Assembly: GCA_018057825.1 (NCBI GenBank)
Contig: JAGPCY010000013.1
Span: forward strand, 62,001-126,000
From: Kofleriaceae bacterium
GTDB lineage: Bacteria > Myxococcota_A > Polyangia > Haliangiales > Haliangiaceae
Direction: 5' to 3'
DNA length: 64,000 nucleotides
Of the stretch, positions 9,134-25,250 are shown piece by piece. Below the pieces are notes generated by a model. That model ran no database searches. It worked only from the letters and a program-made list of their open reading frames with translations, and was not told the origin of the DNA. Made by a program: the position numbers and the translations under genes. Every line of letters starts with the position of its first letter. Within the stretch, counting starts at the first letter, position 1.

Positions 9134-9562
9134 TCAGTACTCCCAGTCGCGCTCGGCCGCGCGGTCGTCGTGGCGGGCGGCGTCGGCCTCGTAGCGGTCG
9201 GCGATGGCCTCGAGGACGGCGCCGGTGCGCGGGTGGGTGCGGCGGACCGCGTCGGCCCAGGCCCGGTAGCGGGCGGCCTCGGTTCGTTCGAGGGCGCCGC
9301 CGTCGTCGAGACCGCGGGTCGTGACGCCGCGCCGGTTGTAGACGCCGGTCCTGAAGCCTGACTCGAGTTCCTTGCTCCGTGTGCGATCGATGGCGTCTCG
9401 CACCGCTTCGGCCGGCCAGTGGCCGTCCTCGCCCTTCGGCGAGGCGGCGAGGACCTTGCCGATGTGCAGGTCGGCGACCGCGAGGCGTCCTGCCGCTATC
9501 GCCAGCGCGCGGGCCTCCTCGATCCAGGCCTCGAGCGCGCCGCATCTGGAGGCGTGGCGATG
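9134..9562 (-). pseudogene. C-terminal fragment of a conserved hypothetical protein, 5' end lost at a repeat tract
   Basis: The frame from about 9562 to the stop at 9134 encodes a convincing domain: GHWPAEAVRDAIDRTRSKEL, then GVYNRRGVTTR, ERTEAARYRAWADAVRRTHP and IADRYEADAARHDDRAAERD. I recognise this as the C-terminus of longer uncharacterised bacterial proteins, though I cannot name the family. There is no ATG, GTG or TTG near the start of the conserved part. The frame stays open upstream through the hexanucleotide tract, as an Arg-Pro run, to an ATG at 9724, only 7 bp from the divergent kinase start. Either the 5' part was lost where the repeat expanded, or a 196-aa protein with an Arg-Pro leader is made. 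I favour loss. Confidence 0.5.
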
Positions 9563-9587
9563 ACGAAGCGACCGGGCGCGGGATTGG

Positions 9588-9681
<94 letters not shown>

Positions 9682-9730
9682 CCGCACGCGCTCCCGGGGG
9701 TTGGCGCGGATCGTGCTTGGCCATGATCCT

Positions 9731-11904
9731 ATGGGAGAGCCCGCCCCGGCGTTGGACCGGGTCCGCAAGGTCACGGTCGGCCAGTGGTTGATCGTGCTGG
9801 TGGCCGTGCTGTTCGTGGGGCCGCTGTTCATCTCGAACCTGTGGGGCTACCTGAAGACGCGGCGGGCGTTGACGGCGACGGCCGAGCGCAACCTGCGCGA
9901 CGTGGCGGCGGTGGAGGCGGCGACCACCGATGACTTCGTGCGCCAGGCGGCGGAGCTGGTGCCGGCCCTGGTCAGCGGCGCGCCGGGGATGGTCGAGCTG
10001 ATCGGGGCGGCGGCCGGACCCGACGCGGGGGCGGCGCGCACCCGGCTCCACGAGCAGCTCCGCGTCGGGGTGGCCGGGGTGCCGGAGCTCGACGAGCTGC
10101 AGGTGGTCGGCGCCGGCGGCGAGGTGCTGGCGTCGTCGCGCGGCGCGGTGACGGGGCCCGATCTGGCGGCGGCGCTGTGCCTGGGGCGCGGTCGTACGCA
10201 GCCGGCGGTGGTCGGGTTCGAGCGCGGCGATGGTCCGCCCGAGCTCCTGGTCGCGACGCCGGTGGCCGGCGGCGCGGTGTTCTGCGCGCGCTTTCGGTTC
10301 GCGGTGTACGAGCGGCTCCTGGCCACGCTCAGCCGCGGCCGCGCGGTCGCGGTCCGCTATCTCCTCGACGAGGACCGCCGGGTGATCGCGGCCGCGCCGG
10401 CCGGCGTGGCGGTGGCGACCGGGGAGCGGCTGGCCTGGTTGCCGCGACCCGCGGCGGCCACGGCGTGGTCGGCGCGCGGCCGCGGTCCTGACGGCGCGGC
10501 GCTGTCGATCGCGTACAGCCCGGTGCCGCGGGTCGGCTGGGCCATCGTGGTCGCGATCCCGGTCGACGCCGCGCTGGCCGACCTCGAGGCCCTCAAGCGC
10601 CAGGCCCTCGTCGGCTTCGCGACCTTGGTCCTGGTCGCGGCGCTGGCGATCTTCCTGACCTGGCGGACTCTGGTCGGCCCGATGCGCGCAGTGTCTGCGG
10701 CGGCCGAGCGGATCGCCGACGGTGGCGCGGCGGGTGCGACGGTGGCGCCCTCGGGGCCGCGCGAGCTGATCGAGCTGGCCCACGCCTTCAATCGCATGAG
10801 CCTGGCGCTGCGCGAGTCCCACGACACGATGGCCGATCGCATCGCGGCCCGGACCCGCGAGCTGCGCGATAGCGAGGAGTTCCTCGAGCTGCTCCTCAAC
10901 TCGATCGATCAGCGCGTGGTCGTGACCGATCGCGACTACCGCATCGTCAAGGCCAACAACGCCGCCGAGCGCATGCACGGTGACGAGCTGGTCGGCGCGG
11001 TCTGCTACCAGCGCTTCGAGGGGCGGACCAGCCCATGCGAGGACTGCCCGGCCGCGCACACCTTCGCGACCGGGGCGCCGGCCACCGCCGAGCGCTCGCA
11101 GCACACCGTCAACGGCCAGGAGCCGCTGTCGATCGAGACCTACCCGGTGCGCAGCGACGGCGGCGCGGTCGACTCGGTGATCGCGATCAGCCGCGTGACC
11201 AGCCGCGAGAAGCAGCTCCAGGCTCACCTGGCGTTCCAGGAGAAGATGGCGGCGCTCGGTCAGCTCGCCGCCGGCGTCGCCCACGAGCTCGGCAACCCGC
11301 TGGCGTCGATCGACGCCCAGCTCCAGCGCGCCGAGCGCGATCCCGCCGGAGCTGCGACCGCGGTGCCGATCGTCCGCAAGGAGGTCGGGCGCATGGGGCG
11401 GATGTTGCGCGAGCTGGTCGATCTGGCCCGGCGCAAGCGCGACAAGGTCGGGCTGGCCGCGCCCAACCAGATCGTCGACGACGTGGTCCGCCTCATCGAG
11501 CACGATCCGCGGGCGCGCAACGTGGAGCTCGCGCGCGACCTGGCGCCGGCGCTGCCCGGGGTGCGGCTGGTCGAGGATCATCTGGTCCAGGTGCTCTTGA
11601 ACCTCGGCCTCAACGCCCTCGACGCCTTGGGCGGGGCCGGCACGATCACCTTCGCCACCCGGGTCGCTGGCGATCGGGTCGAGGTCCGGGTCAGCGACAC
11701 CGGCCCCGGGGTCGCCCGCGAGGCCTTGGCCCGGCTGTTCGAGCCGTTTCACACCACCAAGCCGCCGGGCCGCGGCACCGGCCTCGGCCTGTTCGTGTCC
11801 AAGCGCATCATCGACGAGCTGGGCGGCGAGCTCGAGCTCGAGGCCACCGGGCCGACCGGCACCACCTTCATCATCAAGCTGCCGGCGGTGCCGGTGGAGG
11901 ATCC

Positions 11905-11908
<4 letters not shown>
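9731..11908 (+). CDS. Transmembrane sensor histidine kinase (Cache-HAMP-PAS-HisKA-HATPase)
   Basis: 725 aa from the ATG at 9731, which starts just before the first membrane segment; an earlier ATG at 9558 would add a repeat-coded Arg-Ser tail and is rejected. Order: TM1 (about 15-37), a ~260-aa periplasmic sensor of the double-Cache kind, TM2 (about 297-317), HAMP, PAS (about 380-480), HisKA with GVAHELGNPLASI (phospho-His near 518), HATPase with DTGPGVA and GTGLGLFVSKRII. The PAS carries C...FEGR.SPCEDCP; such Cys sets can bind metal or sense redox. It is coupled to the next gene (ATGA) and forms a two-component system of the NtrB/NtrC type. The cytochrome locus nearby has sigma-54-type promoters, making it the likely target. 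Confidence 0.93.
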
Positions 11909-13251
<1,343 letters not shown>

Positions 13252-13607: not shown

Positions 13608-14252
13608 TCAGCGGCCGAAGCCGCGGACGACCTCGCGCATGGCGGCGAGCAGCTCGGGCTTGCCCGACAGGTCGCCGTGGGGCGGCATGAGCGGGCTCTT
13701 GCCGACCGCGGGACCGCCCTGGAGGATCGCCTTCTCGATGTGGAGATCGGTGACCGTGCGCTGCCACGACCGATCGGTGAAGTTGCGCGGCTTGGGCGTG
13801 AGCGCGACGCCGGTGGGGCCATCGCCCTTGCCGGAGGCGCCGTGGCAGGGCACGCAGCGCCCGGCGTAGAACTTCTTGGCGTCGGGCAAGAGCGGATTGG
13901 CCGCAGGCTTTGCCGGCTTGTCGGCAGGCGATGCGGCCGGCTTGGTCGCGGCGACGTGGTCCGCGTGCTCATCGGCTGGCCGGGTCGCGGGCTTAGCGTG
14001 CCGATGGGGCCCGGGCGCAGGACCTGCTGCGCGCGACGCATCGTTTGCGTCGGCGCTCGCGATCGCGCCTTCGCCGACCACCGAGGTCCAGGTCTCGTCG
14101 GGACTCGCGGCCGCGACCGCGATCGTGCCGTCGTCGGGCGCGGCGGTCGGCGCGGCGCTGGCCGCGGTGGTCGGCGACCACGGCTTGCAGATCGGTTGAC
14201 GCGCACACGCGCCGACGAGCAGCGCGAACGACAGGGTGAGGATGCGGTTCAT
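13608..14252 (-). CDS. Monoheme c-type cytochrome lipoprotein
   Basis: 214 aa. The signal peptide ends in a lipobox-like LLVGAC (Cys16), so the protein is probably membrane-tethered. A Pro/Ala/His-rich linker of ~110 residues follows, then a small cytochrome c domain with CVPCH at 133-137 and a likely axial Met in SPLMPPHGDLS. The domain resembles that of the divergent gene at 14366 (both have GDGPxxxxLxPKPRxFxD and SPLMP), so the two are paralogs. The Lys/Ala/Pro linker would let the heme reach across the periplasm. The gene diverges from the electron-transfer operon, and a sigma-54-type promoter (14269-14284) lies 16 bp upstream of its ATG. Confidence 0.88.
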   Translation of the reverse strand: MNRILTLSFALLVGACARQPICKPWSPTTAASAAPTAAPDDGTIAVAAASPDETWTSVVGEGAIASADANDASRAAGPAPGPHRHAKPATRPADEHADHVAATKPAASPADKPAKPAANPLLPDAKKFYAGRCVPCHGASGKGDGPTGVALTPKPRNFTDRSWQRTVTDLHIEKAILQGGPAVGKSPLMPPHGDLSGKPELLAAMREVVRGFGR

Positions 14253-14268
14253 GGCGATCGATCACCCG

Positions 14269-14284
14269 TGCAACCGATATTCCC
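14269..14284 (-). promoter_or_regulatory. Sigma-54-type promoter for the cytochrome lipoprotein gene
   Basis: On the minus strand the site reads GGGAATATCGGTTGCA: GG, ten bases, then GC within a perfect TTGCA -12 box. Only the -24 side departs from consensus (GGGAAT for TGGCAC). It ends 16 bp before the ATG at 14252. Confidence 0.55.
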
Positions 14285-14300
14285 GCGCGCGCGGCGCTGT

Positions 14301-14316
14301 TGGTCCCGGCGTTGCA
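14301..14316 (+). promoter_or_regulatory. Sigma-54-type promoter for the cytochrome/cupredoxin operon
   Basis: TGGTCCCGGCGTTGCA: TGG at -24, exact GG-N10-GC spacing and a perfect TTGCA -12 box. It lies 49 bp upstream of the ATG at 14366. It faces away from the minus-strand element at 14269-14284; the two are 16 bp apart. An NtrC-type activator is encoded ~1 kb away (11905-13251). Confidence 0.62.
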
Positions 14317-14365
14317 AAGCTCGGCAGTCACGCACGCCGGTCGCGTGCAATCGAGGAGAAGACCC

Positions 14366-14776
14366 ATGTCGCACGTCTCGTTCGCTCGCACGCTCACCGT
14401 CGCCGCTCTCGGCGTCGGCCTCGCTCTCGGCTCCCTGGCGCTGCGCGCGCCGCGCGCCACCGCCGAGACTCGCGCGCCCAGCCCGGCGCCGATCGCGCTC
14501 GCCGACAGCGGCGCCGAGCTGTTCACGACCAACTGCGCCACCTGCCACGGCGCCAAGGGCGACGGCGACGGCCCGGCCTCGCCCGGCTTGAACCCCAAGC
14601 CGCGCAAGTTCTCCGACAAGGCGATCATGAGCAAGCTGACCGACGCCAAGCTGACCGCGGTGATCAAGGGTGGCGGTGCGGCCAACGGCCTGAGCCCGCT
14701 GATGCCGGCCTTCGGTCATCTGACGGAGGCCCAGGTGAAGTCGCTGGTCACGCACATCCGCAGCCTCGCCAAGTAG
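14366..14776 (+). CDS. Periplasmic monoheme cytochrome c
   Basis: 136 aa, start set by GAGGAGAA eight bases before the ATG at 14366. A cleavable signal peptide (residues 1-33, ending ATAETRA) precedes a class I-like cytochrome c domain: heme motif CATCH at 57-61, axial Met in SPLMPAFGHLT, and a C-terminal helix LTEAQVKSLVTHIRSL. It is a soluble electron carrier and the first gene of an eight-gene, same-strand run ending at 24043, 20 bp ahead of the pentaheme gene. Close similarity to the divergent lipoprotein cytochrome suggests the two exchange roles or electrons. Confidence 0.93.
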   Translation: MSHVSFARTLTVAALGVGLALGSLALRAPRATAETRAPSPAPIALADSGAELFTTNCATCHGAKGDGDGPASPGLNPKPRKFSDKAIMSKLTDAKLTAVIKGGGAANGLSPLMPAFGHLTEAQVKSLVTHIRSLAK

Positions 14777-14796
14777 CTCGCTCGCCGGAGGTCCTC

Positions 14797-17700
14797 GTGT
14801 CCATCGCCGCTCGCTTGCTGTCTCGCCTCGCGCTCGTGGTCGTCGCCGGCCTCGGCGCTGGGCTGTCCGGGCTCACCGGACTCTCGGGTTGTACCTGTGA
14901 GTCCAGTCGCGAGGCCTGCACCCGGGACGGCGAGTGCGGCGACGGCGAGGTCTGCTACGGCGATGATCGGTGCGTGCCGCGCGAGGTCGCGCAGCGGGTC
15001 GGCGCGGTGGTCGGCGAGGAGTGCGCGGTGGTCGGCGGGGTCGAGGTCGGGTGCGAGGCCGACGAGTGGTGTCGGATGGGCTTCTGCCGCGGCGCCGACG
15101 ACGTCGACGGGGGGCACGGCCACGAGGTCGACGGCGGGATCGACGGGGCGATGGTCGGCTGCTCGACGGGCACCGCGGCCGACATGGCGCCGCTGTTCGG
15201 TGGCGCGGCCGAGGCCAGCGCCGACGGCGCGGACGCCGTGGTGGTGTCGTGGATCGCGGCCGCCGATGAGACCCTGCCGGCCGATCTCCGCTACCACGTG
15301 TACGTCGCGACCACCGCCGGGGCGCAGGACCTCACGGCGCCGACCACCACCGTGGTCGGCCAGACCACCGCGCGCCTGACCGGGCTCACCGCCGGCACGA
15401 CCTACCACGTCGTGGTCCGCGCCGAGGACGCCGCCGGCCAGATCGACTGCAACACCACCGAGCGCTCGGCGACCCCGCGGGCAGCCGGCGCGTGCGTGTC
15501 GTACACCGCCGACGTCAAGCCGATCCTCGACGGTCGGTGCCTCGGCTGCCACAGCGGCTCGGCGCCGCCAGCCGGGCTGCGGCTCGACAGTCACGCCAAC
15601 GTCCTGGCCGGCGGCATCACCGGCACCGAGGTGGTCGCGTGTCAGCCGACGGCCAGCCTGATCTATCTGAAGGTGTCGTCGGACACGCCGCCGGTCGGGG
15701 TGCGCATGCCGCAGGGCGGGCCGTACCTGAGCGCGGCGCAGATCCAGACCATCCACGACTGGATCGCGGGCGGCGCGCCCCTCGACTGTCCGACCGATCC
15801 AGGCGCCTGCAGCGACGCCACCGCGCCGACCTTCGCCGGGTTGACCAGCGCGACCTTGACCAACGACAGCACGGCGCGGCTGTGCTGGGCCGCCGGCGCC
15901 GATGACGTGACCCCCGCCGGCCAGCTCTTGTACGACGTCTACCAGGCGACCGCGCCCGGCGGTCAGGTGTTCACGTCGCCGCCCGAGACCACGACCGCGC
16001 CCGGCGCGACCTGCGTCGACGTCGCTGGGCTGACGCCCGCCCAGCAATACTGCTGGGTGACCCGCGCGCGCGATGGCGCGGGCAATCGCGACGGCAACAC
16101 CGTCGAGCGCTGCCTCACCACGCCGACCGCGAGCTGCATCGACTACGCGACCGTCGTCCAGCCGGTGTTCAACGCCGAGTGCGTGCACTGCCACGCCGGG
16201 GCCGCGGCGCCGCGCGGGCTGCGGCTCGACAGCTACGCCGGCGTGATCGCCGGCGGCCAGACCGGCAACACCGTGGTGTCGTGTCAGCCGTCGTCGAGCT
16301 TGCTGTATCAGAAGGTGTCGATGGCGACGCCGCCGGTCGGGGTTCGGATGCCAGCGGACGGGCCGCCGTACCTGACCGCGGCGCAGCAGAGCGCGATCCA
16401 GCAGTGGATCAGCGAGGGCGCGCGCAGCTCGTGTGGCGCTCCCGATCCGTGCAGCGACACCACCCCGCCGAGCTTCGCCGGCGCCACCACCGCGACCGCG
16501 ATCAACGCCACCACGATCGAGGTGTGCTGGGCGCCGGGCAGCGACAACCTGACTCCGGCCGCGGGGCTCATCTACGACGCCTACACCGCCTCTGCGCCAG
16601 GGGGCCAGGCCCTGACCGGCGCGCCGACCAAGTCGAGCGCGGCCGGCGCCACCTGCGTCCGCATCGACGCGCTCAGTCCTTCGAGCCAGCAGTGCGTCGT
16701 GGTCCGGGCCCGCGACGGCGCCGGCAACCGCGACAGCAACCGGGTCGAGCGCTGCGTCACCACGCCGGCCGTGCCGCCGGGGTGCGTCGACTACGCGACG
16801 ATGATCCAGCCGCTGTTCGATCGCAACTGCACGCGGTGCCACGCTGGCGATCGTCCGCCGCAGTGGCTGCGGCTCGACAGCTACGATCACGCGCTGGCCG
16901 GCAGCGCCAAGCGCAACGCGGTCGCCGCGTGCAACGCCGGCGCGAGCCTGATCGTGAACAAGATCGGCGCGACGCCGACCGCCGGACGGCGCATGCCCTA
17001 CGACGGCCCGCCGTACCTGACCAGCGCGCAGCTCGCGATGGTCAGTCAGTGGATCAACCAGGGCGCGCAGCGGACCTGCGGTGAGCCCGCGGCCTGCGGC
17101 GACACCACCGCGCCGAGCTTCATCGGTGCGGCGTCGGCGAGCGCGGTCGACTCGACCACGGTCCGGGTGTGCTGGCCCCAGGCCACCGACGCCGTGACCG
17201 CGGCGGCGTCCTTGCGCTACGACGTCTACCAGAGCGCGACCGCGGGTGGCGAGAACTACAGCCTGCCGCCCGCCGATAGCGTGGTCGGTCAGCTCTGCAC
17301 CGACGTCCGGGTCGGCCCGGCCTCGACCACCTGCTTCGTCGTCCGCGCCCGCGACCTGGCCGGCAACCGCAGCGTCAACACTGTCGAGCGCTGCGCGACC
17401 ACCGCGGCCGCGACCTGCGCGGTCGAGTACGACGCGCTGATCCAGCCGATCCTGACCGCTCGCTGCACCCACTGCCACCAGGGCGAGGACGGGCCGCGGT
17501 TCCTCGATCTGCGCACCTATGGCGGGGCCTTGGCCGGCGGCGCGATCCGCGACGCGGTCGACGCCTGCGACTGGGCCGGCAGCCTGCTCAACACCAAGAC
17601 CGCGGGCGCGGCGTGTGGCGCGCGCATGCCGGCCGACGGGCCACCGTGGCTCGCGGCGTCCGAGCGATCGCTCTTGAAGGCCTGGATCGACAGCGGCGCG

Positions 17701-18351
17701 CGGCGCACCTGCGCCGACCCGGCGGTGTGCGGCGACACCACCGCGCCGAGCTTCGCCGGGGCGACCACCGCGACCGCGACCTCGGCCACGACGATCGAGG
17801 TGTGCTGGAGCCCGGCGAGCGACGCCGGGAGCGCCGCCGACAGCGTGGTCTACGAGGTCTACGATGGCGCCACCGCGGCCGGCATCGCCTTCAACCGCGC
17901 AGCGCCCTACGCGGTCGCCGGTGGCGCCACCTGCCTCGCGGTCACCGTGCCCACCGGCCAGCAGACCTGCCTGGCGGTGCGGGCCCGCGACCTGGCCGGC
18001 AACCGCGATGGCAACACCGTGGCGCGGTGCGCGACGCCGGCTGGCGCGTGCTTCGCGTACGACGACGTGATCCAGCCGCTGTTCGATGCGCGGTGCGTCC
18101 ACTGTCACAGCGGCAGCAACCCGCCGCGCGGCATCCGCTGGGACAGCTACGCCAACGCGGTCGCCAACGACGGCGAGGTCCGGCCGTGCGACGCCGGCAG
18201 CAAGCTGCTCGACGTGGTCGACGCTTGCGACATGCCCGCCGATACCACCAGCGGCGCGTGCCGCGCGTGCCTGACCAGCTCTCAGAACCGCCTGTTGCGG
18301 CAATGGGTGCTGGGCGGCGCCGACGCGGCCTGCCCGTGGGGAGGATGCTGA
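14797..18351 (+). CDS. Lipoprotein of five alternating fibronectin-III-like and single-heme cytochrome domains
   Basis: 1184 aa; GTG start at 14797 preceded by CCGGAGG. Lipobox LSGC (Cys32) is followed by a Cys-rich segment (about 33-115) and an Asp/Gly spacer. Five ~212-aa modules follow. Each starts with a fibronectin-III-like sandwich (D.TAPSFAGAT.A....TT..VCW.P..D, ending V.RARD.AGNRD.NTVERC) and ends with a PSCyt1-like heme domain (IQPLFD..C..CH....PP..LRLDSY, an RMP axial Met, then a WI..GA helix). Heme motifs: CLGCH ~248, CVHCH ~462, CTRCH ~678, CTHCH ~890, CVHCH ~1100. Heme 5 has CDMPAD in place of RMP. The even spacing implies a rigid string of hemes outside the inner membrane, most likely at the cell surface. 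An electron-relay role is inferred from hemes and operon context. Confidence 0.88.
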   Translation: MSIAARLLSRLALVVVAGLGAGLSGLTGLSGCTCESSREACTRDGECGDGEVCYGDDRCVPREVAQRVGAVVGEECAVVGGVEVGCEADEWCRMGFCRGADDVDGGHGHEVDGGIDGAMVGCSTGTAADMAPLFGGAAEASADGADAVVVSWIAAADETLPADLRYHVYVATTAGAQDLTAPTTTVVGQTTARLTGLTAGTTYHVVVRAEDAAGQIDCNTTERSATPRAAGACVSYTADVKPILDGRCLGCHSGSAPPAGLRLDSHANVLAGGITGTEVVACQPTASLIYLKVSSDTPPVGVRMPQGGPYLSAAQIQTIHDWIAGGAPLDCPTDPGACSDATAPTFAGLTSATLTNDSTARLCWAAGADDVTPAGQLLYDVYQATAPGGQVFTSPPETTTAPGATCVDVAGLTPAQQYCWVTRARDGAGNRDGNTVERCLTTPTASCIDYATVVQPVFNAECVHCHAGAAAPRGLRLDSYAGVIAGGQTGNTVVSCQPSSSLLYQKVSMATPPVGVRMPADGPPYLTAAQQSAIQQWISEGARSSCGAPDPCSDTTPPSFAGATTATAINATTIEVCWAPGSDNLTPAAGLIYDAYTASAPGGQALTGAPTKSSAAGATCVRIDALSPSSQQCVVVRARDGAGNRDSNRVERCVTTPAVPPGCVDYATMIQPLFDRNCTRCHAGDRPPQWLRLDSYDHALAGSAKRNAVAACNAGASLIVNKIGATPTAGRRMPYDGPPYLTSAQLAMVSQWINQGAQRTCGEPAACGDTTAPSFIGAASASAVDSTTVRVCWPQATDAVTAAASLRYDVYQSATAGGENYSLPPADSVVGQLCTDVRVGPASTTCFVVRARDLAGNRSVNTVERCATTAAATCAVEYDALIQPILTARCTHCHQGEDGPRFLDLRTYGGALAGGAIRDAVDACDWAGSLLNTKTAGAACGARMPADGPPWLAASERSLLKAWIDSGARRTCADPAVCGDTTAPSFAGATTATATSATTIEVCWSPASDAGSAADSVVYEVYDGATAAGIAFNRAAPYAVAGGATCLAVTVPTGQQTCLAVRARDLAGNRDGNTVARCATPAGACFAYDDVIQPLFDARCVHCHSGSNPPRGIRWDSYANAVANDGEVRPCDAGSKLLDVVDACDMPADTTSGACRACLTSSQNRLLRQWVLGGADAACPWGGC

Positions 18352-18809
18352 TGCGCACCGGGTTCACCACTGTCACGACGATCGCCCTCGGGTTCGCGCT
18401 GTCGGTCGGCTGCGTCGACTTCGGCTTTCGCGTCCCGCCGCCCGAGGTCGAGGTCGACGCCACGCCGGTCGACGCCGATGGCGACGGCGCGACCGCCTGC
18501 GTCGAGGGGGCGACCACCCCGACCAGCGATGGGCCGCAGATCGCGTTCACCACGCTCAACGTCGATCGGCCGATCGTCAACGTGATGGTCGGCGACGTGG
18601 TGACCTGGACCAACGGCGACACGATGACCCACACGGTGACCGCCGGCGTGCCCGGCGCGCCGCAGCCTCCGCCGGCCGGCTTCGACAGCGGCGACCTCGC
18701 GCCCGGCGCGCGCTGGGCCTACCGGTTCTGCACGCCGCGCACGGCGATCTACTTCTGTCGGCCCCACGCCAACCAGATGAACGGCTATCGCGTGATCGTC
18801 GCGCCATGA
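18351..18809 (+). CDS. Cupredoxin-like copper lipoprotein
   Basis: 152 aa from the ATG at 18351, which overlaps the previous stop (TGATG) and has GGAGG six bases upstream. The signal peptide ends LSVGC (Cys21). After an Asp/Ala-rich linker comes a plastocyanin-like domain: VMVGDVVTWTNGDTMTHTVTAG supplies the first His ligand, and YFCRPHANQM supplies Cys, His and Met in the classic C-x2-H-x3-M order of a type 1 copper site. It is expected to carry single electrons in the periplasm or on the outer membrane, and sits between the pentaheme protein and the PEGA protein in one overlapping operon. Confidence 0.88.
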   Translation: MRTGFTTVTTIALGFALSVGCVDFGFRVPPPEVEVDATPVDADGDGATACVEGATTPTSDGPQIAFTTLNVDRPIVNVMVGDVVTWTNGDTMTHTVTAGVPGAPQPPPAGFDSGDLAPGARWAYRFCTPRTAIYFCRPHANQMNGYRVIVAP

Positions 18810-19492
18810 CCACCCCGACTGGCACCCCCGACCGCCGCGCCGCGGCGCCCACGCCGCCGCGTGGCGTCAGCCGCGCGCGGCCGCTGTCGTGGCGCAACCC
18901 ATGGACCCTGGTCCTGGGAGCGCTCGCCGGCTTTCAGGCCGGGGTGATCGTGACGCTCTTGTGGACCTCGGGTGGTGACGGCAGCGGCGAGTCGACCGCG
19001 ACCGCGCCCGCGCCGACCCCGCCATCGACGACGCTGGCGCCTTCGGTGGCCGCTGCGCCGCCGGCGGCTGGGCCGGCGCCGGCGGTCGCGCCGCTCCCCA
19101 CCGTCGAGCCGCCGCCCGCGGTCGAGCCGCCGCCCGCGGTCGAGCCGCCGCCCACGGTCGAGCCCCCCCCCAGCGGACGTCGCAAGCGCCCGCCGCGGAC
19201 CCCGCCCGGGGTCGCGGCGCCTGGCCCGGACGCCGGAGCGGCCCCGGCCGATCCGACCCCGACCGGCACCGGCGCGCTCGTCGAGGTCGACGTCCACTCC
19301 GAGCCCGAGGGCGCCACCGTGCGCATCGCTGGCGCGGTGTGGGGCGTGACGCCGTTGACCGTGTACCTCCCTGATACCGCCCCGGTGGTGATCCGCCTCG
19401 AGCTCGACGGCCACGCGCCGGCGAAGCTGACCTGGTCACCCGCTGGCCGCCGCGCCCTGCGCGCGGTGCTCACGCCCACGGAGAACCCATGA
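18806..19492 (+). CDS. PEGA-domain membrane protein
   Basis: 228 aa. A cytoplasmic N-terminus (~35 residues), one TM helix (about 36-56), a long Pro/Ala/Val linker with four tandem VEPPP repeats (19102-19163), and a C-terminal ~75-residue PEGA domain (VDVHSEPEGATVRIAGAVWG ... ELDGHAP). PEGA domains are small beta-sandwiches on the outer face of membranes, often in myxobacterial kinases or S-layer-like proteins. The start overlaps the cupredoxin stop (ATGA), and the end overlaps the heme-barrel start. A scaffold that positions redox partners across the periplasm is plausible, but only inferred from the operon. Confidence 0.85.
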   Translation: MTTPTGTPDRRAAAPTPPRGVSRARPLSWRNPWTLVLGALAGFQAGVIVTLLWTSGGDGSGESTATAPAPTPPSTTLAPSVAAAPPAAGPAPAVAPLPTVEPPPAVEPPPAVEPPPTVEPPPSGRRKRPPRTPPGVAAPGPDAGAAPADPTPTGTGALVEVDVHSEPEGATVRIAGAVWGVTPLTVYLPDTAPVVIRLELDGHAPAKLTWSPAGRRALRAVLTPTENP

Positions 19493-20769
19493 GAGCCACG
19501 CTCCTGTTCGCCGCCCTCGCGGTCGCCGCCGCCTGGTCGCCAGCCCACGCGATCCCGCGCTTCGCCGCGCGCAACGGCAACGAGTGCATTCAGTGCCACG
19601 TGAGCCCGAGCGGCGGTGGGGTCCGCAACGCCTACGGGCGCAACGTGTTCGAGCGCACCTGGCTGCCGCGGACGGGCCGCCTGACCGCCGACGACTACGT
19701 GGTCAAGCCGGCCGACGCCGATGGCGCCGATGGCGATGATGCGGCTGCGCCGCCGCCGCCGGAGCCGGTGGTGTTCGATCCCGAGATCAATCAGTGGATG
19801 GTGCTGGGCGGCGATCTGCGCGCTGCCTTCATCTACATCCGCCCCGATCGCGGCCGCACTCCCGACGCCGACCCTGACGTCGTCAGCTCGTTCTTCCTGA
19901 TGCAGGCCGACCTGTATCACGCGATGACGCTCAACGAGCACGTCACCACCGTGCTCGACGTCGGCGCGTACTCGGGCTTCGAGGCCTGGGCGTTGTTCCA
20001 TCGCAAGCCCGAACCGGCGCGCTACGACGTCCTCGTGAAGGTCGGGCGGTTCATGCCGGCGTTCGGGATCCGCGAGGTCGAGCACCAGCTCTTCACCCGC
20101 GAGGGGGTTGGGCTCGGTCAGACCGATCGCGACACCGGTATCGAGGTCACGGGCTACGCCGGGCCGATGACGGCGATGGTGTCGCTGCTCAACGGCACGC
20201 TCGGCGACACCGGGTTCGATAGTCACGGCAGCGAGCGCACCCGGTTCGAGAAGGCGGTGGTCGGTCGGCTGAGCGCGCGCGGTGACGCCGGCTGGGCCCG
20301 CGGTCAGCTCGGGCTGTCGGCGTACTGGAATGACAACGGCAACCAGGCCAACCCGCTTTTGGCCGGCAGCGTGGATCCGGCCGACGCCGCCGAGGTCGGC
20401 GCCGGCGTCGACGAGCTGCGCCTGGGCGGCTTCGTCACCGCGAACCTCGGCCGCTTCACCTACCTGGCCGATCTGGTCTGGGTCCGCGACCGCTTCGCCA
20501 GCGATCGGCTACCGAGCTTGTCCGGCTACACCAGCTACCAGGAGCTGTCGTTCCTGCCGACCCAGGGGCTCGATGTGATCGGGACCTTCGAGTTCGCCGA
20601 CCCCGATCTCGACCTGGTCGACAACACCACCATGCGCGCCGGCCTGGTGGTCGAGTTCTTCCCGTGGCCGTTCACCGAGCTGCGCGCGATGGTGCGGCGG
20701 ACCTGGAGCGACACCGCCGCCACCGGTGGCGCCTGGGACGCGGTGTTCTTCACCCACCTGTTCATGTAG
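19489..20769 (+). CDS. Outer-membrane beta-barrel with an N-terminal c-type heme site
   Basis: 426 aa. Signal peptide MRATLLFAALAVAAAWSPAHA, then a single heme motif CIQCH at residues 33-37 within NECIQCHVSPSGGGVRNAYG, then an acidic spacer. From about residue 100 come alternating beta-strands typical of a porin (for example VLVKVGRFMPAFGIREVEHQ, GQLGLSAYWNDNG, LRLGGFVTANLGRFTY, MRAGLVVEFFPWPFTELRAMVRRTW), ending in FTHLFM, close to an outer-membrane insertion signature. A heme next to the barrel mouth suits a porin-cytochrome conduit in which electrons cross the outer membrane. The ATG overlaps the PEGA stop. Heme-bearing barrels of this type occur in other proteobacteria and myxobacteria, but I cannot name the family. 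Confidence 0.8.
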   Translation: MRATLLFAALAVAAAWSPAHAIPRFAARNGNECIQCHVSPSGGGVRNAYGRNVFERTWLPRTGRLTADDYVVKPADADGADGDDAAAPPPPEPVVFDPEINQWMVLGGDLRAAFIYIRPDRGRTPDADPDVVSSFFLMQADLYHAMTLNEHVTTVLDVGAYSGFEAWALFHRKPEPARYDVLVKVGRFMPAFGIREVEHQLFTREGVGLGQTDRDTGIEVTGYAGPMTAMVSLLNGTLGDTGFDSHGSERTRFEKAVVGRLSARGDAGWARGQLGLSAYWNDNGNQANPLLAGSVDPADAAEVGAGVDELRLGGFVTANLGRFTYLADLVWVRDRFASDRLPSLSGYTSYQELSFLPTQGLDVIGTFEFADPDLDLVDNTTMRAGLVVEFFPWPFTELRAMVRRTWSDTAATGGAWDAVFFTHLFM

Positions 20770-20778
20770 GAGCCGATC

Positions 20779-22356
20779 GTGAACTCCCCGATGATCTCTC
20801 GCAGGCTTTCGGGTGCGCGCTGGCTCGTGGCCGCGACGCTCGTGGCCTCGGCCGTGGTGCTGGGCCAGGCGGTCGCCGACGACGCCGAACCGCCGGCCGC
20901 GCCGACGGCGCCCGCGGTCGGCCGGATCGCTGGTCAGGTCCGGTTCGCCGGCACGGCGCCGCCGCCGGCCGAGCTCCACGCCCACCACGATCCCGAGGTG
21001 TGCGCCAAGGGCGGGCCGCTCATCGACGAGCGCCTGCTCGTCGATGGCGCGGGTGGCCTGGCCAACGTGGTGGTGGTGTTGCAGGGCGTGCCGGCCGCGC
21101 CGCCGCCGAGCCCGACCACCGCGACCCTCGACCAGAAGGCGTGCCGGTTCGTGCCGCACGTCCAGGCGGTGCCGCTCGGGACCACGCTCGCGATCACCTC
21201 GAGCGACCCGGTCCTGCACAACGTCCACGCCTTCCTGGGCAAGCGCACCGCGTTCAACCTGGCGATCCCGGTGCCGGGCAAGACCGTGCCGCGCAAGCTC
21301 GAGCAGTCGGGCATCCTGCGCATCCGCTGCGACTCTGGCCACGACTGGATGAGCGCCTACGTCGCGGTGGTGCCGCACCGCTTCTTCGCGGTGTCGGCGC
21401 CCGACGGTCGGTTCGCCCTCGACGACGTGCCGCCCGGCGAGTACCGGTTGCGGGCCTGGCACGAGTCGCTCGGCGCGGTCGAGCAGCGGGTGACGGTGGC
21501 GGCCGGGGTCGACGCGGCGGTCAGCCTGACCTTCAAGGAGCTCGAGGACGACGCCAAGCCGGCGCCGACCGATGCCCTGCGCGACGCGCTGGCCGCGACC
21601 AAGACCGCGGTCGAGGAGCTCGAGGCGCGGCAGCGCGCCGACGAGCGCGGCCGCCTGGCCCGCGAGGGCGCGCCGCTGTTTCGAAAGTTCTGCGCCACCT
21701 GCCACGGCCAGCGCGGCGATGGCCGGGGCCCGTCGGCGCAGTTCACCACCACGCCGCCGCGCGACCTGACCCGCGGCACGTTCAAGTTCCGCATGACGCC
21801 GGTGGGCGCGCCGCCGACCCAGGCCGACCTGATCCGCACGATCAACGCCGGCGTCCGCGGCACCCACATGCCGGCGTGGAAGGGCAAGCTGACCCCGACC
21901 CAGATCGAGACCCTGGCCCGCTACGTCACGACGCTGTCGGATCCGTTCTGGACGGGCGCGCCGCCGCCCGAGCTCCTGGTGATCCCGCCGGAGCCGGCCT
22001 ACGATCTAGCGTCGGTCGAGCGCGGCAAGGCGCTGTACGCCAAGATGCAGTGCGCGACGTGCCACGGTGAGCGCGGCGCGGGCGACGGTCCGGCCGCCGC
22101 GGCGCTCAAGGATGACTGGGGCCACAAGATCGCGCCGGCCGACTTCACGCGCGGGCGGATCAAGGGCGGTTGTTGTGGCGCCGCGATCTACCGGGCGATC
22201 TCGACCGGCCTGGGCGGCACGCCCATGCCGTCGTTCGGCGCCGCGATGTCCCCGGCCGAGCGCTGGGATCTGACGCACTACGTGTTGTCTCTGGGCCACG
22301 AGCGACCGGCGGTCGACTATCTCTTGCGCGACCCGGTCGGGAGGATCTCGCCATGA
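20779..22356 (+). CDS. Fusion of cupredoxin-like, carboxypeptidase-regulatory and two cytochrome c domains
   Basis: 525 aa. Signal peptide (about 1-34, ending GQAVADD). Residues ~45-200 form a cupredoxin-like fold with VLHNVHAF and IRCDSGHDWMSAYV, supplying His, Cys, His and Met copper ligands. Residues ~205-255 are a carboxypeptidase-regulatory strand set (APDGRFALDDVPPGEYRLRAWHE). A short coiled segment (265-295) leads to two cytochrome c domains with CATCH at 305-309 (axial Met in GTHMPAWKGKL) and CATCH at 425-429 (TPMPSFGAAM). One polypeptide would therefore hold one copper and two hemes in the periplasm. It lies 9 bp after the heme-barrel gene and is coupled to the next gene. Nitrite or nitric oxide reductase signatures are absent. 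Confidence 0.87.
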   Translation: MNSPMISRRLSGARWLVAATLVASAVVLGQAVADDAEPPAAPTAPAVGRIAGQVRFAGTAPPPAELHAHHDPEVCAKGGPLIDERLLVDGAGGLANVVVVLQGVPAAPPPSPTTATLDQKACRFVPHVQAVPLGTTLAITSSDPVLHNVHAFLGKRTAFNLAIPVPGKTVPRKLEQSGILRIRCDSGHDWMSAYVAVVPHRFFAVSAPDGRFALDDVPPGEYRLRAWHESLGAVEQRVTVAAGVDAAVSLTFKELEDDAKPAPTDALRDALAATKTAVEELEARQRADERGRLAREGAPLFRKFCATCHGQRGDGRGPSAQFTTTPPRDLTRGTFKFRMTPVGAPPTQADLIRTINAGVRGTHMPAWKGKLTPTQIETLARYVTTLSDPFWTGAPPPELLVIPPEPAYDLASVERGKALYAKMQCATCHGERGAGDGPAAAALKDDWGHKIAPADFTRGRIKGGCCGAAIYRAISTGLGGTPMPSFGAAMSPAERWDLTHYVLSLGHERPAVDYLLRDPVGRISP

Positions 22357-22787
22357 CTCGCTATCGCCTGTCCTGCATCGTCGCCCTCGCCGGCGCCTGC
22401 GCCGCGGGCGGGGGCCCGCCCGGCGAAGCGCCCGGCACGATCACCGGCGTGGTCGACTACGCCCGGCCCGCGGCCGGCACCCTCCGGGTCGCGGTGTTCG
22501 CCTCGTTCCCGCCGGTCGGCGAGCCGATCGCCGAGGTCGCGATCGACGAGCCGCGCTTCCCGCAGGCCTATCAGGTCCGCGGCGTGCCGCCGGGGCGCTA
22601 CTTCGTCCTGGCCATGGTCGACGGCGACCCCGACGACGGCGATCGCTATCGGCCGCGGACCGATCCCGGCGGCGCGTTCGGTACCTACCTGAGTCCGGCG
22701 GCGGTGACGATCACGACCCTCGGTCCGGCGTCGGCGGTCGACATCACCCTCGAGCCGCCGATGGCGGGGTCGCCGTGGGATCGGTAG
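22353..22787 (+). CDS. Small lipoprotein with a carboxypeptidase-regulatory-like domain
   Basis: 144 aa. Signal peptide with LAGAC, then a single beta-sandwich: GTITGVVDYARPAAGTLRVAVF, YQVRGVPPGRYFVLAMVDGDPDD, ending in strands with AVTITTLGPASAVDITLEPP. This resembles the carboxypeptidase-regulatory or transthyretin-like folds used as structural modules in secreted proteins. No metal or heme site is visible. The ATG overlaps the preceding stop (ATGA), so it is translated with the redox proteins; a structural or adaptor role is inferred. Confidence 0.8.
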   Translation: MTRYRLSCIVALAGACAAGGGPPGEAPGTITGVVDYARPAAGTLRVAVFASFPPVGEPIAEVAIDEPRFPQAYQVRGVPPGRYFVLAMVDGDPDDGDRYRPRTDPGGAFGTYLSPAAVTITTLGPASAVDITLEPPMAGSPWDR

Positions 22788-24043
22788 GCCGGCCACCGCC
22801 GCCGCCGCCCGGCCGGCCGCGCACCGAGCCGGGCGCGACCTCGGCCACCGTCGACGCGGTCACGACCCCGGGGCGCGGGGTGCCGATGGCGGCGGGCGCG
22901 ATCGGTCCGTACGAGGTGATCGCCGAGATCGCGCGCGGTGGGATGGGCGTGGTCTACCTGTGCCGGCGCGCGGGCGAGGCCGGGTTCGAGCGGCTGTTCG
23001 CGGTCAAGGAGATGCACCCGCACCTGGCCACCGATCACGACTTCGTGACCATGCTGCTCGACGAGGCGCGCCTGGCCGCGCGCATCCATCACCACAACGT
23101 CGCCAGCGTCGTCGAGCTGGGAAAGTCCGAGCGCGGCTACTACCTGGTCATGCCTTACGTCGAGGGGTGTTCGCTCGATCAGCTCCTGGCGCGCAACCCG
23201 ACCTATCGCCCGCCCAGCTTGCTGGTGCCGATCTTGATCGGCGCCCTCAATGGCCTGCACGCCGCCCACGCGCTCGAGGGCGACGACGGTCGCCCGGTTG
23301 GCCTGGTCCACCGCGACGTGTCACCGCACAACGTGCTGATCGGCATCGACGGCGACGCCCGCATCACCGACTTCGGCGTGGCCAAGGCCAAGGCTCGCAT
23401 CACGTCGACCCAGCCAGGGATGATCAAGGGCAAGCTGTGCTACTGCGCCCCCGAGCTCCTGGGCGCCGGCGGTCGCGTCGACCACCGCGCCGATCAGTTC
23501 GCGGCCGGCGCGGTCTTGTGGAGCGCGCTGACCGGACGGGCGCTGTTTCGCGGCGACACCGACGCCGAGACCGTGCAGCGCGTCTTGCACCTGGAGGTGC
23601 CGCCGCCGAGCGCGATCGGCCTGGCTCCGACCGCGGTGTTCGATCAGGTGATCCTGCGGTCCTTGGCCCGTGACCCAGACAAGCGGTTCCCCAGCGCCGG
23701 GGCGATGGCCGAGGCCCTGCGGGCGGCGGCGCTGACGGCCGGCATGCTCGGGGCGCCGACCCGGATCGCGCGCTGGGTGCGCGACACGTTCGCCGACGAT
23801 CTGGCCGAGCGGCATCGGCTGATCCGCGCGGCCCGGCCGTCGAGCTCCGGCGCGGTACCGGTCCTGCCGCAGTTCGTGCCCGACGTGGTTCACCCGCCGC
23901 AGCCGACCCCGCCGCCGATCTCGCTCGACGAGGTCGACCCGCCGCCGGCGACCGGCGGCGACCTCGCGCGGTTCGTGGCGGTGGTGGCGGCGGCGTTCGG
24001 CCTCGGGGTCTACGTGACCCTGTACGCGCGCGGCGGGTGGTGA
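22775..24043 (+). CDS. Hanks-type Ser/Thr protein kinase with C-terminal membrane anchor
   Basis: 422 aa from the GTG at 22775, inside the previous gene (13-bp overlap); an ATG at 22886 would give 385 aa and start just before the kinase domain. Kinase domain about 44-310: glycine loop ARGGMGVVYL, catalytic Lys in FAVKEMHPHL, HRDVSPHN catalytic loop, DFGVAK, and the P+1 region KGKLCYCAPE. All active-site residues are present. A Pro-rich stretch precedes one C-terminal TM helix (FVAVVAAAFGLGVYVTLYA) with only a few residues outside, so any sensing outside the cell must come from partners. It is the last member of the electron-transfer operon, suggesting that phosphorylation is tied to that system. 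Confidence 0.92.
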   Translation: MGSVGRPPPPPPGRPRTEPGATSATVDAVTTPGRGVPMAAGAIGPYEVIAEIARGGMGVVYLCRRAGEAGFERLFAVKEMHPHLATDHDFVTMLLDEARLAARIHHHNVASVVELGKSERGYYLVMPYVEGCSLDQLLARNPTYRPPSLLVPILIGALNGLHAAHALEGDDGRPVGLVHRDVSPHNVLIGIDGDARITDFGVAKAKARITSTQPGMIKGKLCYCAPELLGAGGRVDHRADQFAAGAVLWSALTGRALFRGDTDAETVQRVLHLEVPPPSAIGLAPTAVFDQVILRSLARDPDKRFPSAGAMAEALRAAALTAGMLGAPTRIARWVRDTFADDLAERHRLIRAARPSSSGAVPVLPQFVPDVVHPPQPTPPPISLDEVDPPPATGGDLARFVAVVAAAFGLGVYVTLYARGGW

Positions 24044-24368: not shown

Positions 24369-25250
24369 CTAGCGCGCGGACGCGGCCGCGGCCAGCCGGG
24401 CCTTGAGCTCGCGCTCGAGCAGCGCGGCGAGCTCGGCGTGGAGCCGGCCGTAGTGACGCTGCGGCCGGTAGTACAGATAGACCGGGCGGGTCACGGCGTT
24501 GAACCGCGGATCGACGCGGACCGCGCCGCCGCGCGGCACGCTGTGGCGCGGCATGACCGCGCGCCCGAGGCCGAGGGACACGCCGAGCAAGATGCCGGCG
24601 TCGTCGTCGAGGAACGAGCGCTGCCAGCGGCGCGGTCGGGCCTTGGCCGGCTGGCGGGCGAAGAACCAGTCGGTGGCGCGATCGGCGGTCGAGGTGTCGA
24701 GGAACACGTCGGGCCGCGCCGGGCCGCGGGCCCGCTCGATGACCACGTACTCCTCGACGCCGATCGCGACCCGGACCAAGGACGGATGATCGGGCTCGTC
24801 GTAGGACAGCGCGAAGTCGGCGGCGCCACGGGCCACGGTGGCGCCGCGCGCGTCGTCGTCGACGTGGTGGAGATCGAGCTGGACCGCCGGGTTGGCCAGG
24901 AGGTACGGCGCGACCACCGGCACGACCTGATCGGGCACCAGCGACGAGGTGCCGACCAGGCGGACCACGCCGCGGACCTGGCCCGGGCGCGGCGCCAGCT
25001 CGGCCAGGAGCTCGTCCTCGAGGGCGCGCTGGGCCAGGATGAAGCCGAGCAGGCGCTGGCCGGCGTCGGTCAGGGTCAAGTGGCGCGGGCCGCGGACGAT
25101 CAGCGCGGTCGCCAGGTGGGTCTCGAGGTTGGCGATCCGGCGCGACAGGGCCGGTTGGGTCAGGTGCAGCTCGCGCGCGGCGGCGGTGAACGAGCCGGCG
25201 CGGACCACCGCCGCGAAGGCCGCGAGCTGATCTTGCGACAGGGGTTGCAT
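24369..25250 (-). CDS. LysR-family transcriptional regulator
   Basis: 293 aa. The N-terminal winged helix-turn-helix (residues 1-60) is typical: LAAFAAVVRAGSFTAAARELHLTQPALSRRIANLE. It is followed by the linker helix and a periplasmic-binding-protein-like effector domain (about 90-285). It diverges from the small DMT transporter at 25343 across a 92-bp region holding two ATGC-N7-GCAT boxes, which match the T-N11-A rule for LysR operators. It probably controls itself and the transporter; the effector is unknown. Confidence 0.95.
   Translation of the reverse strand: MQPLSQDQLAAFAAVVRAGSFTAAARELHLTQPALSRRIANLETHLATALIVRGPRHLTLTDAGQRLLGFILAQRALEDELLAELAPRPGQVRGVVRLVGTSSLVPDQVVPVVAPYLLANPAVQLDLHHVDDDARGATVARGAADFALSYDEPDHPSLVRVAIGVEEYVVIERARGPARPDVFLDTSTADRATDWFFARQPAKARPRRWQRSFLDDDAGILLGVSLGLGRAVMPRHSVPRGGAVRVDPRFNAVTRPVYLYYRPQRHYGRLHAELAALLERELKARLAAAASAR

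Follow-up and report, generated by a model that had tools for sequence, protein, structure and literature searches.

In a Kofleriaceae bacterium we found a nine-gene cluster, A-I, that we read with moderate confidence as a sigma-54-regulated operon for outer-membrane electron transfer through a Cyc2-like, heme-bearing barrel protein, F. The source genome is 8.9 Mb and 99.7% complete, and the genes span positions 13608-24043 of the window, by which we mean the whole 64-kb stretch of DNA that was analyzed (Table 1).

Table 1. Genes of the cluster, the neighboring regulatory genes and the candidate promoters, with positions in the window.
Feature	Position	Strand	Evidence and remarks
Sensor histidine kinase: HAMP, PAS, HisKA, HATPase	9419-11908 (start codon uncertain)	+	Pfam; beside the cluster in L046 and L047
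NtrC-type response regulator: receiver, sigma-54 activator, Fis-type HTH	11908-13251	+	PF00158 3.3e-63, PF00072, PF02954
A: monoheme cytochrome c lipoprotein, divergent	13608-14252	-	PF00034, one CXXCH, lipobox-like VGAC; conserved in L039/L040
Candidate sigma-54 promoter for A, GGGAATATCGGTTGCA	14269-14284	-	GG-N10-GC; stronger copies at the corresponding position of L046 and L047
Candidate sigma-54 promoter for B-I, TGGTCCCGGCGTTGCA	14301-14316	+	TGGNNC-N5-TTGCA; ~50 bases before B, in the 113-base A-B gap
B: monoheme cytochrome c with signal peptide	14366-14776	+	PF00034 8e-15
C: 1184-aa lipoprotein, FN3 and PSCyt1 domains, 5 CXXCH	14797-18351	+	PF07635 2.4e-26, PF00041 1.6e-11
D: cupredoxin lipoprotein	18351-18809	+	PF00127; type-1 Cu ligands H94, C136, H139, M143
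E: membrane-anchored PEGA-domain protein	18806-19492	+	PF08308
F: one CXXCH fused to a predicted 16-stranded barrel, Cyc2-like architecture, own family	19489-20769	+	AF2 model, OprO match
G: cupredoxin and carboxypeptidase-regulatory-like domain fused to diheme cytochrome c	20791 (GTG at 20779 possible)-22356	+	
H: small lipoprotein	22353-22787	+	Without Pfam match
I: Ser/Thr protein kinase, C-terminal TM-like segment	22775-24043 or 22886-24043	+	PF00069 2.8e-30

All nine genes named in the first-pass annotation were recovered with the domains it had given them, by Pfam and NCBIfam profiles and by reading CXXCH motifs. Together they hold 10 CXXCH motifs and two cupredoxin domains with type-1 copper sites. 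Neighboring genes overlap by 1-4 bases at four junctions (TGATG at C/D; ATGA at D/E, E/F and G/H). B/C and F/G are short gaps, and H and I overlap only if I starts at the GTG at 22775, a less likely start than the ATG at 22886. The annotation had described nearly all junctions as overlapping; the count is 4 of 7, perhaps 5 of 7. It had also overlooked the histidine kinase and response regulator genes (9419-13251) and the promoters of sigma-54 type. Past the other end of the cluster, a LysR-type regulator gene (24369-25250, minus strand) is convergent with the kinase gene I.

The single CXXCH of F lies at residue 33, shortly after the signal peptide. The protein has no Pfam or NCBIfam match, and a search of its sequence against solved structures gave nothing significant, OprO at E 0.44 being too weak to serve as evidence. 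An AF2 model from 86 sequences (pLDDT 86.7, pTM 0.85), which superseded a poor model built on six (pLDDT 53), predicts 16 strands over residues 104-425. The closest structural matches of this model were OprO (Z 27.4) and OprP (Z 27.0), with rmsd of 2.7-2.8 over 308 residues; other porins scored Z 24.6 and less. Pfam profiles matched few of the 86 F relatives, Porin_4 in 5 and Porin_O_P in 2. F is presumably located in the outer membrane, with an equally presumptive topology and heme position. H199, M138 and H423 are conserved family-wide and are our guess at candidate distal heme ligands.

A scan of the genome collection detected 361 F-family loci in several phyla. We kept the 79 best distinct ones for comparison; as labeled in their records, these come from Myxococcota, Nitrospirota, Ignavibacteria/Bacteroidota, Zixibacteria, Eisenbacteria, Krumholzibacteriota and others. 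The family motif is AxPRFAxRxGxxCxxCHVNP[ST]GGG, or more fully A-x-P-R-F-[AS]-x-R-x-G-x-x-C-x-x-C-H-V-N-P-[ST]-G-G-G-M-R-N. All 83 N-termini compared have the CXXCH, then P at +3 and G at +5 after His; CH[VI][NS]P[SAT]GGG was one of the scan's two search patterns, which means that this part of the consensus was partly selected for. Our literature search found no description of the barrel family, though absence of a paper is not proof, and no paper combining Kofleriaceae, extracellular electron transfer and cytochrome.

The source genome also carries three distant F paralogs (L043:7517-8635, L044:7446-8540 and L045:7859-8986). Two have the N-terminus YPxxxxxTGAxxCxECHxxPxGGGLL and the third a variant of it. 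Paralogs of this distant type are numerous in the family, with up to 7 matches in a single genome (G021).

The gene set is not a chance grouping, since its order and content are kept in two other genomes. The search for conserved synteny found all of A-I, in the same order and with the same divergence, in Kofleriaceae bacterium G010 (L039/L046) and Myxococcales bacterium G002 (L040/L047), and the first-pass proposal thereby passed a refutation test that it had set itself, lack of conservation in relatives. Barrel F is 72% and 66% identical in these two closest relatives, C is 67-69% identical in L039/L040, and the upstream histidine kinase and response regulator accompany the set in L046 and L047. 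Of 30 family genomes screened, three had a close F: the source genome, G010 and G002. The distribution of the cluster is patchy, yet it travels as a unit.

Farther out the set thins. One locus, L048, retains B, a C-like protein, D, F, the diheme and H. Partial sets occur in distant Myxococcota (L041/L049, L042/L055, L050-L053) and in a Nitrospirae genome (L054); the diheme is present in all of these, and D, the G-type cupredoxin and H vary. In the more distant Myxococcota, D- and G-type genes adjoin F, and H adjoining F is conserved in six loci. E and I do not extend beyond the closest clusters: E was found only in the two closest, and I is conserved in L039 and L040. At L041:361-20000 (G034), two F copies flank a kinase/NtrC regulator pair, each copy with its own diheme and cupredoxin genes.

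What is new here is a conserved pair of divergent, putative sigma-54-type promoters between A and B, beside the kinase/regulator pair. A single sigma-54 site is weak evidence: TGGNNCN5TTGCW matched once in the 64 kb where 0.29 matches were expected, and one or more turned up in 27 of 100 shuffled sequences. Both orthologous A-B gaps (L046, L047) have both elements at corresponding places, with much of the remaining gap diverged. Six placed elements in three genomes (whose A-B gaps share ancestry and are not independent draws), together with a sigma-54 activator, make good evidence for sigma-54 control. Two features expected of an NtrC/sigma-54 operon were found, an activator domain with the GAFTGA motif, read in the regulator's sequence and with orthologs in L046 and L047, and a conserved upstream -24/-12 candidate element (GG-N10-GC). 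The adjacent NtrC-type regulator would be the one acting on the A and B promoters, and the histidine kinase is likely part of the system. The kinase PAS domain has the motif CY..F...PC..CP, its cysteines conserved in L046 and L047, and may sense redox state or metals. On the strand opposite the kinase and regulator genes, large open frames showed apparent tblastn conservation and were rejected as shadow frames.

The accessory gene set around F is variable. Among the best 79 loci, PSCyt1-type cytochromes resembling C lie on the same strand within 1.5 kb of F in 33, from several phyla, and in 42 no same-strand ORF with a CXXCH directly adjoins F; the assemblies counted were draft metagenomes with contig ends, taken without dereplication. 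Among 112 sampled neighbors, PSCyt1 was the most frequent Pfam family (9 members), followed by YceI (5), the underlying gene calls being crude. Each of the three distant F paralogs in the source genome adjoins a small monoheme lipoprotein cytochrome or a PSCyt1 hit. YceI-like periplasmic proteins recur beside F in several phyla (L049, L059, L062, L063, L072, L089). In a Nitrospiraceae locus (L056:8358-9995), the ORF just upstream of F has three CXXCH and matches cytochrome P460 (PF16694) in three stretches.

Among the carriers themselves, type-1 Cu ligands are present in 8-10 of 10 aligned sequences for D and in 11 of 11 for G. G is a fusion of two neighboring genes: its halves are separate but adjacent in L041 and L042, and they probably work together. 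A similarity of A and B to cytochrome 579 (NF033864) was set aside, at 40-44 bits against a cut-off of 280.

We infer the electron transfer itself and its direction as follows. F would hold a single c-type heme on its short N-terminal peptide, carried by, and probably inside, the 16-stranded OprO/OprP-type pore. Electrons would pass through F between a donor or acceptor outside and the periplasmic carriers. These would be the two cupredoxin proteins, D as a lipoprotein and G with its diheme half, the cytochromes B and A (the latter divergent), and C, the FN3 lipoprotein with five hemes. Uptake is more likely than export by analogy with Cyc2-cytochrome-rusticyanin chains, and inward flow would end at an oxidase encoded elsewhere. 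Expression of A and of B-I would be turned on at the divergent promoters by the adjacent histidine kinase and its NtrC-type regulator. The first-pass annotation had proposed a complete conduit from periplasm to surface. A 16-strand barrel with a heme, encoded beside carriers of periplasmic type, fits such a path across the outer membrane; the word complete goes further than the gene content, as no gene for an inner-membrane quinone link or terminal oxidase was recognized in the locus. Its remark that a terminal oxidase is missing is right for COX1-family oxidases in the window, and such genes are present at three places elsewhere in the genome.

The same conduit might run outward, with periplasmic cytochromes and cupredoxins passing electrons, by way of F and the pentaheme C, to an acceptor outside the cell. 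Neither the regulator type nor the gene set fixes the direction, and ten hemes, including a pentaheme lipoprotein, together with the summed similarity of C to PccH, would suit export. We nevertheless think it unlikely: cupredoxins are mostly high-potential carriers, and the locus has no inner-membrane quinol-oxidizing cytochrome. Oxidation of Fe(II) is the role of those fused monoheme porins that have been characterized, namely Cyc2 (PMC8406198).

A different role for the carriers is suggested by the diheme half of G, which is homologous to chain B of PDB 6h5l (E 2.2e-48), a protein we take to be Kuenenia kustc0457. In anammox, kustc0457 has been described as the redox partner of octaheme kustc0458, a proposed reducer of nitrite to NO (PMC6423088). 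On this view the carriers might work for an enzyme of the periplasm whose gene lies elsewhere, such as one that converts nitrite or NO, and F would be a porin or redox-sensing channel that has a structural heme. An NrfA-family gene is indeed present in the source genome, on contig C18, another contig than the cluster's; in the examined clusters, however, no nitrite- or NO-converting enzyme was recognized. Both G halves are widespread in Myxococcota genomes without a close F, and the homology of the diheme half therefore tells the type of carrier rather than one pathway. We consider this explanation unlikely. Very improbable, in our judgment, is a module for envelope or metal homeostasis, handling copper or heme rather than respiring. 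It would accommodate the two cupredoxin domains, one of which (in G) carries a carboxypeptidase-regulatory-like domain, and the signaling that the kinase and PEGA protein suggest; it sits poorly with ten hemes, with type-1 Cu ligand sets that are complete, as is usual in electron carriers, and with a cluster annotation that includes neither a copper pump nor a chaperone.

We prefer electron uptake through F to these alternatives. A broader proposal we hold only tentatively. F may be the founder of a new class of outer-membrane cytochrome-porins parallel to Cyc2, a simple module in which a monoheme barrel and a cytochrome of PSCyt1 type, in many cases a lipoprotein, exchange electrons with the outside of the cell. 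Its carriers would include Myxococcota, Nitrospirota, Ignavibacteria/Bacteroidota, Zixibacteria, Eisenbacteria and others, and searches by Cyc2 motif would miss it. Cyc2 serves as an iron-oxidation marker; if the proposal is true, an architecture akin to it but with its own heme motif, found in several phyla and repeatedly next to a PSCyt1-type cytochrome, would widen the set of suspected electron-exchanging bacteria. The operon A-I offers a defined, probably inducible system in which to test electron exchange with the surroundings.

Cyc2 is a fused cytochrome-porin iron oxidase, an N-terminal cytochrome with a 16-stranded OprO/OprP-like porin, defined by the motifs AXPXFAR[Q/K][T/Y] upstream of CXXCH and PXL downstream (Keffer et al. 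2021, PMC8406198). F resembles it in having a signal peptide with a single CXXCH close after it, a 16-stranded OprO/OprP-type barrel (in the predicted model), a length >365 aa, and a heme peptide, A-x-P-x-F-A...G-x-x-C-x-x-C-H, that is probably related to that of Cyc2. F reads AIPRFAARN-GNE-CIQCH-VSPSGGG, and so departs from the upstream motif; downstream, CHVSPSGGG in F and CHVNP[ST]GGG in the family lack PXL. AXPXFAR[Q/K][T/Y] occurs nowhere in the source genome, and the Cyc2 motif was absent from the 16 F-bearing genomes searched. Between profiles of the F family and of 29 full-length proteins bearing the Cyc2 motif, alignment was confined to the heme peptides (E 1.3e-10; without the signal peptide, probability 97%, E 1.9e-11), whereas control class I cytochromes aligned with F over only 12 columns round CXXCH (50%, 1.6e-4). 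Barrel-to-barrel homology was not detectable in profile comparison (E 0.023, probability 2%). Because the heme peptides align and the barrels do not match by sequence, we file F as Cyc2-like, not Cyc2; membership of Cyc2 itself was rejected for want of the motif. F thus appears Cyc2-like in its modeled architecture, and differs in its own motif, in a barrel not alignable by sequence and in its partner genes.

Other known systems share parts of this design. The diheme half of G is homologous over its full length to the kustc0457-type diheme (214 residues, the whole half aligned, E ~5e-49), but is fused to a cupredoxin domain. The locus has no recognized octaheme partner for it; a genome search with PF13447 (octaheme HAO-like) had no match, the control being equally silent. 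MtrAB/PioAB share the concept of heme with an outer-membrane barrel, whereas here one heme and a 16-strand barrel are in one polypeptide and the largest cytochrome in the cluster has 5 CXXCH. An MtrAB-type conduit was rejected on the 16 strands and the missing decaheme partner. The Acidithiobacillus rus-type chain comprises Cyc2, Cyc1, rusticyanin, Cup and an aa3 oxidase (PMC10654088). As in that chain, an outer-membrane cytochrome-porin is here encoded with cytochromes c and cupredoxins; the operon differs in having no oxidase, and in having a pentaheme FN3 lipoprotein and a cupredoxin-diheme fusion as the carriers. Cyc2, a fused porin with one heme, is the closest working analog, rather than a conduit of the multiheme MtrCAB type.
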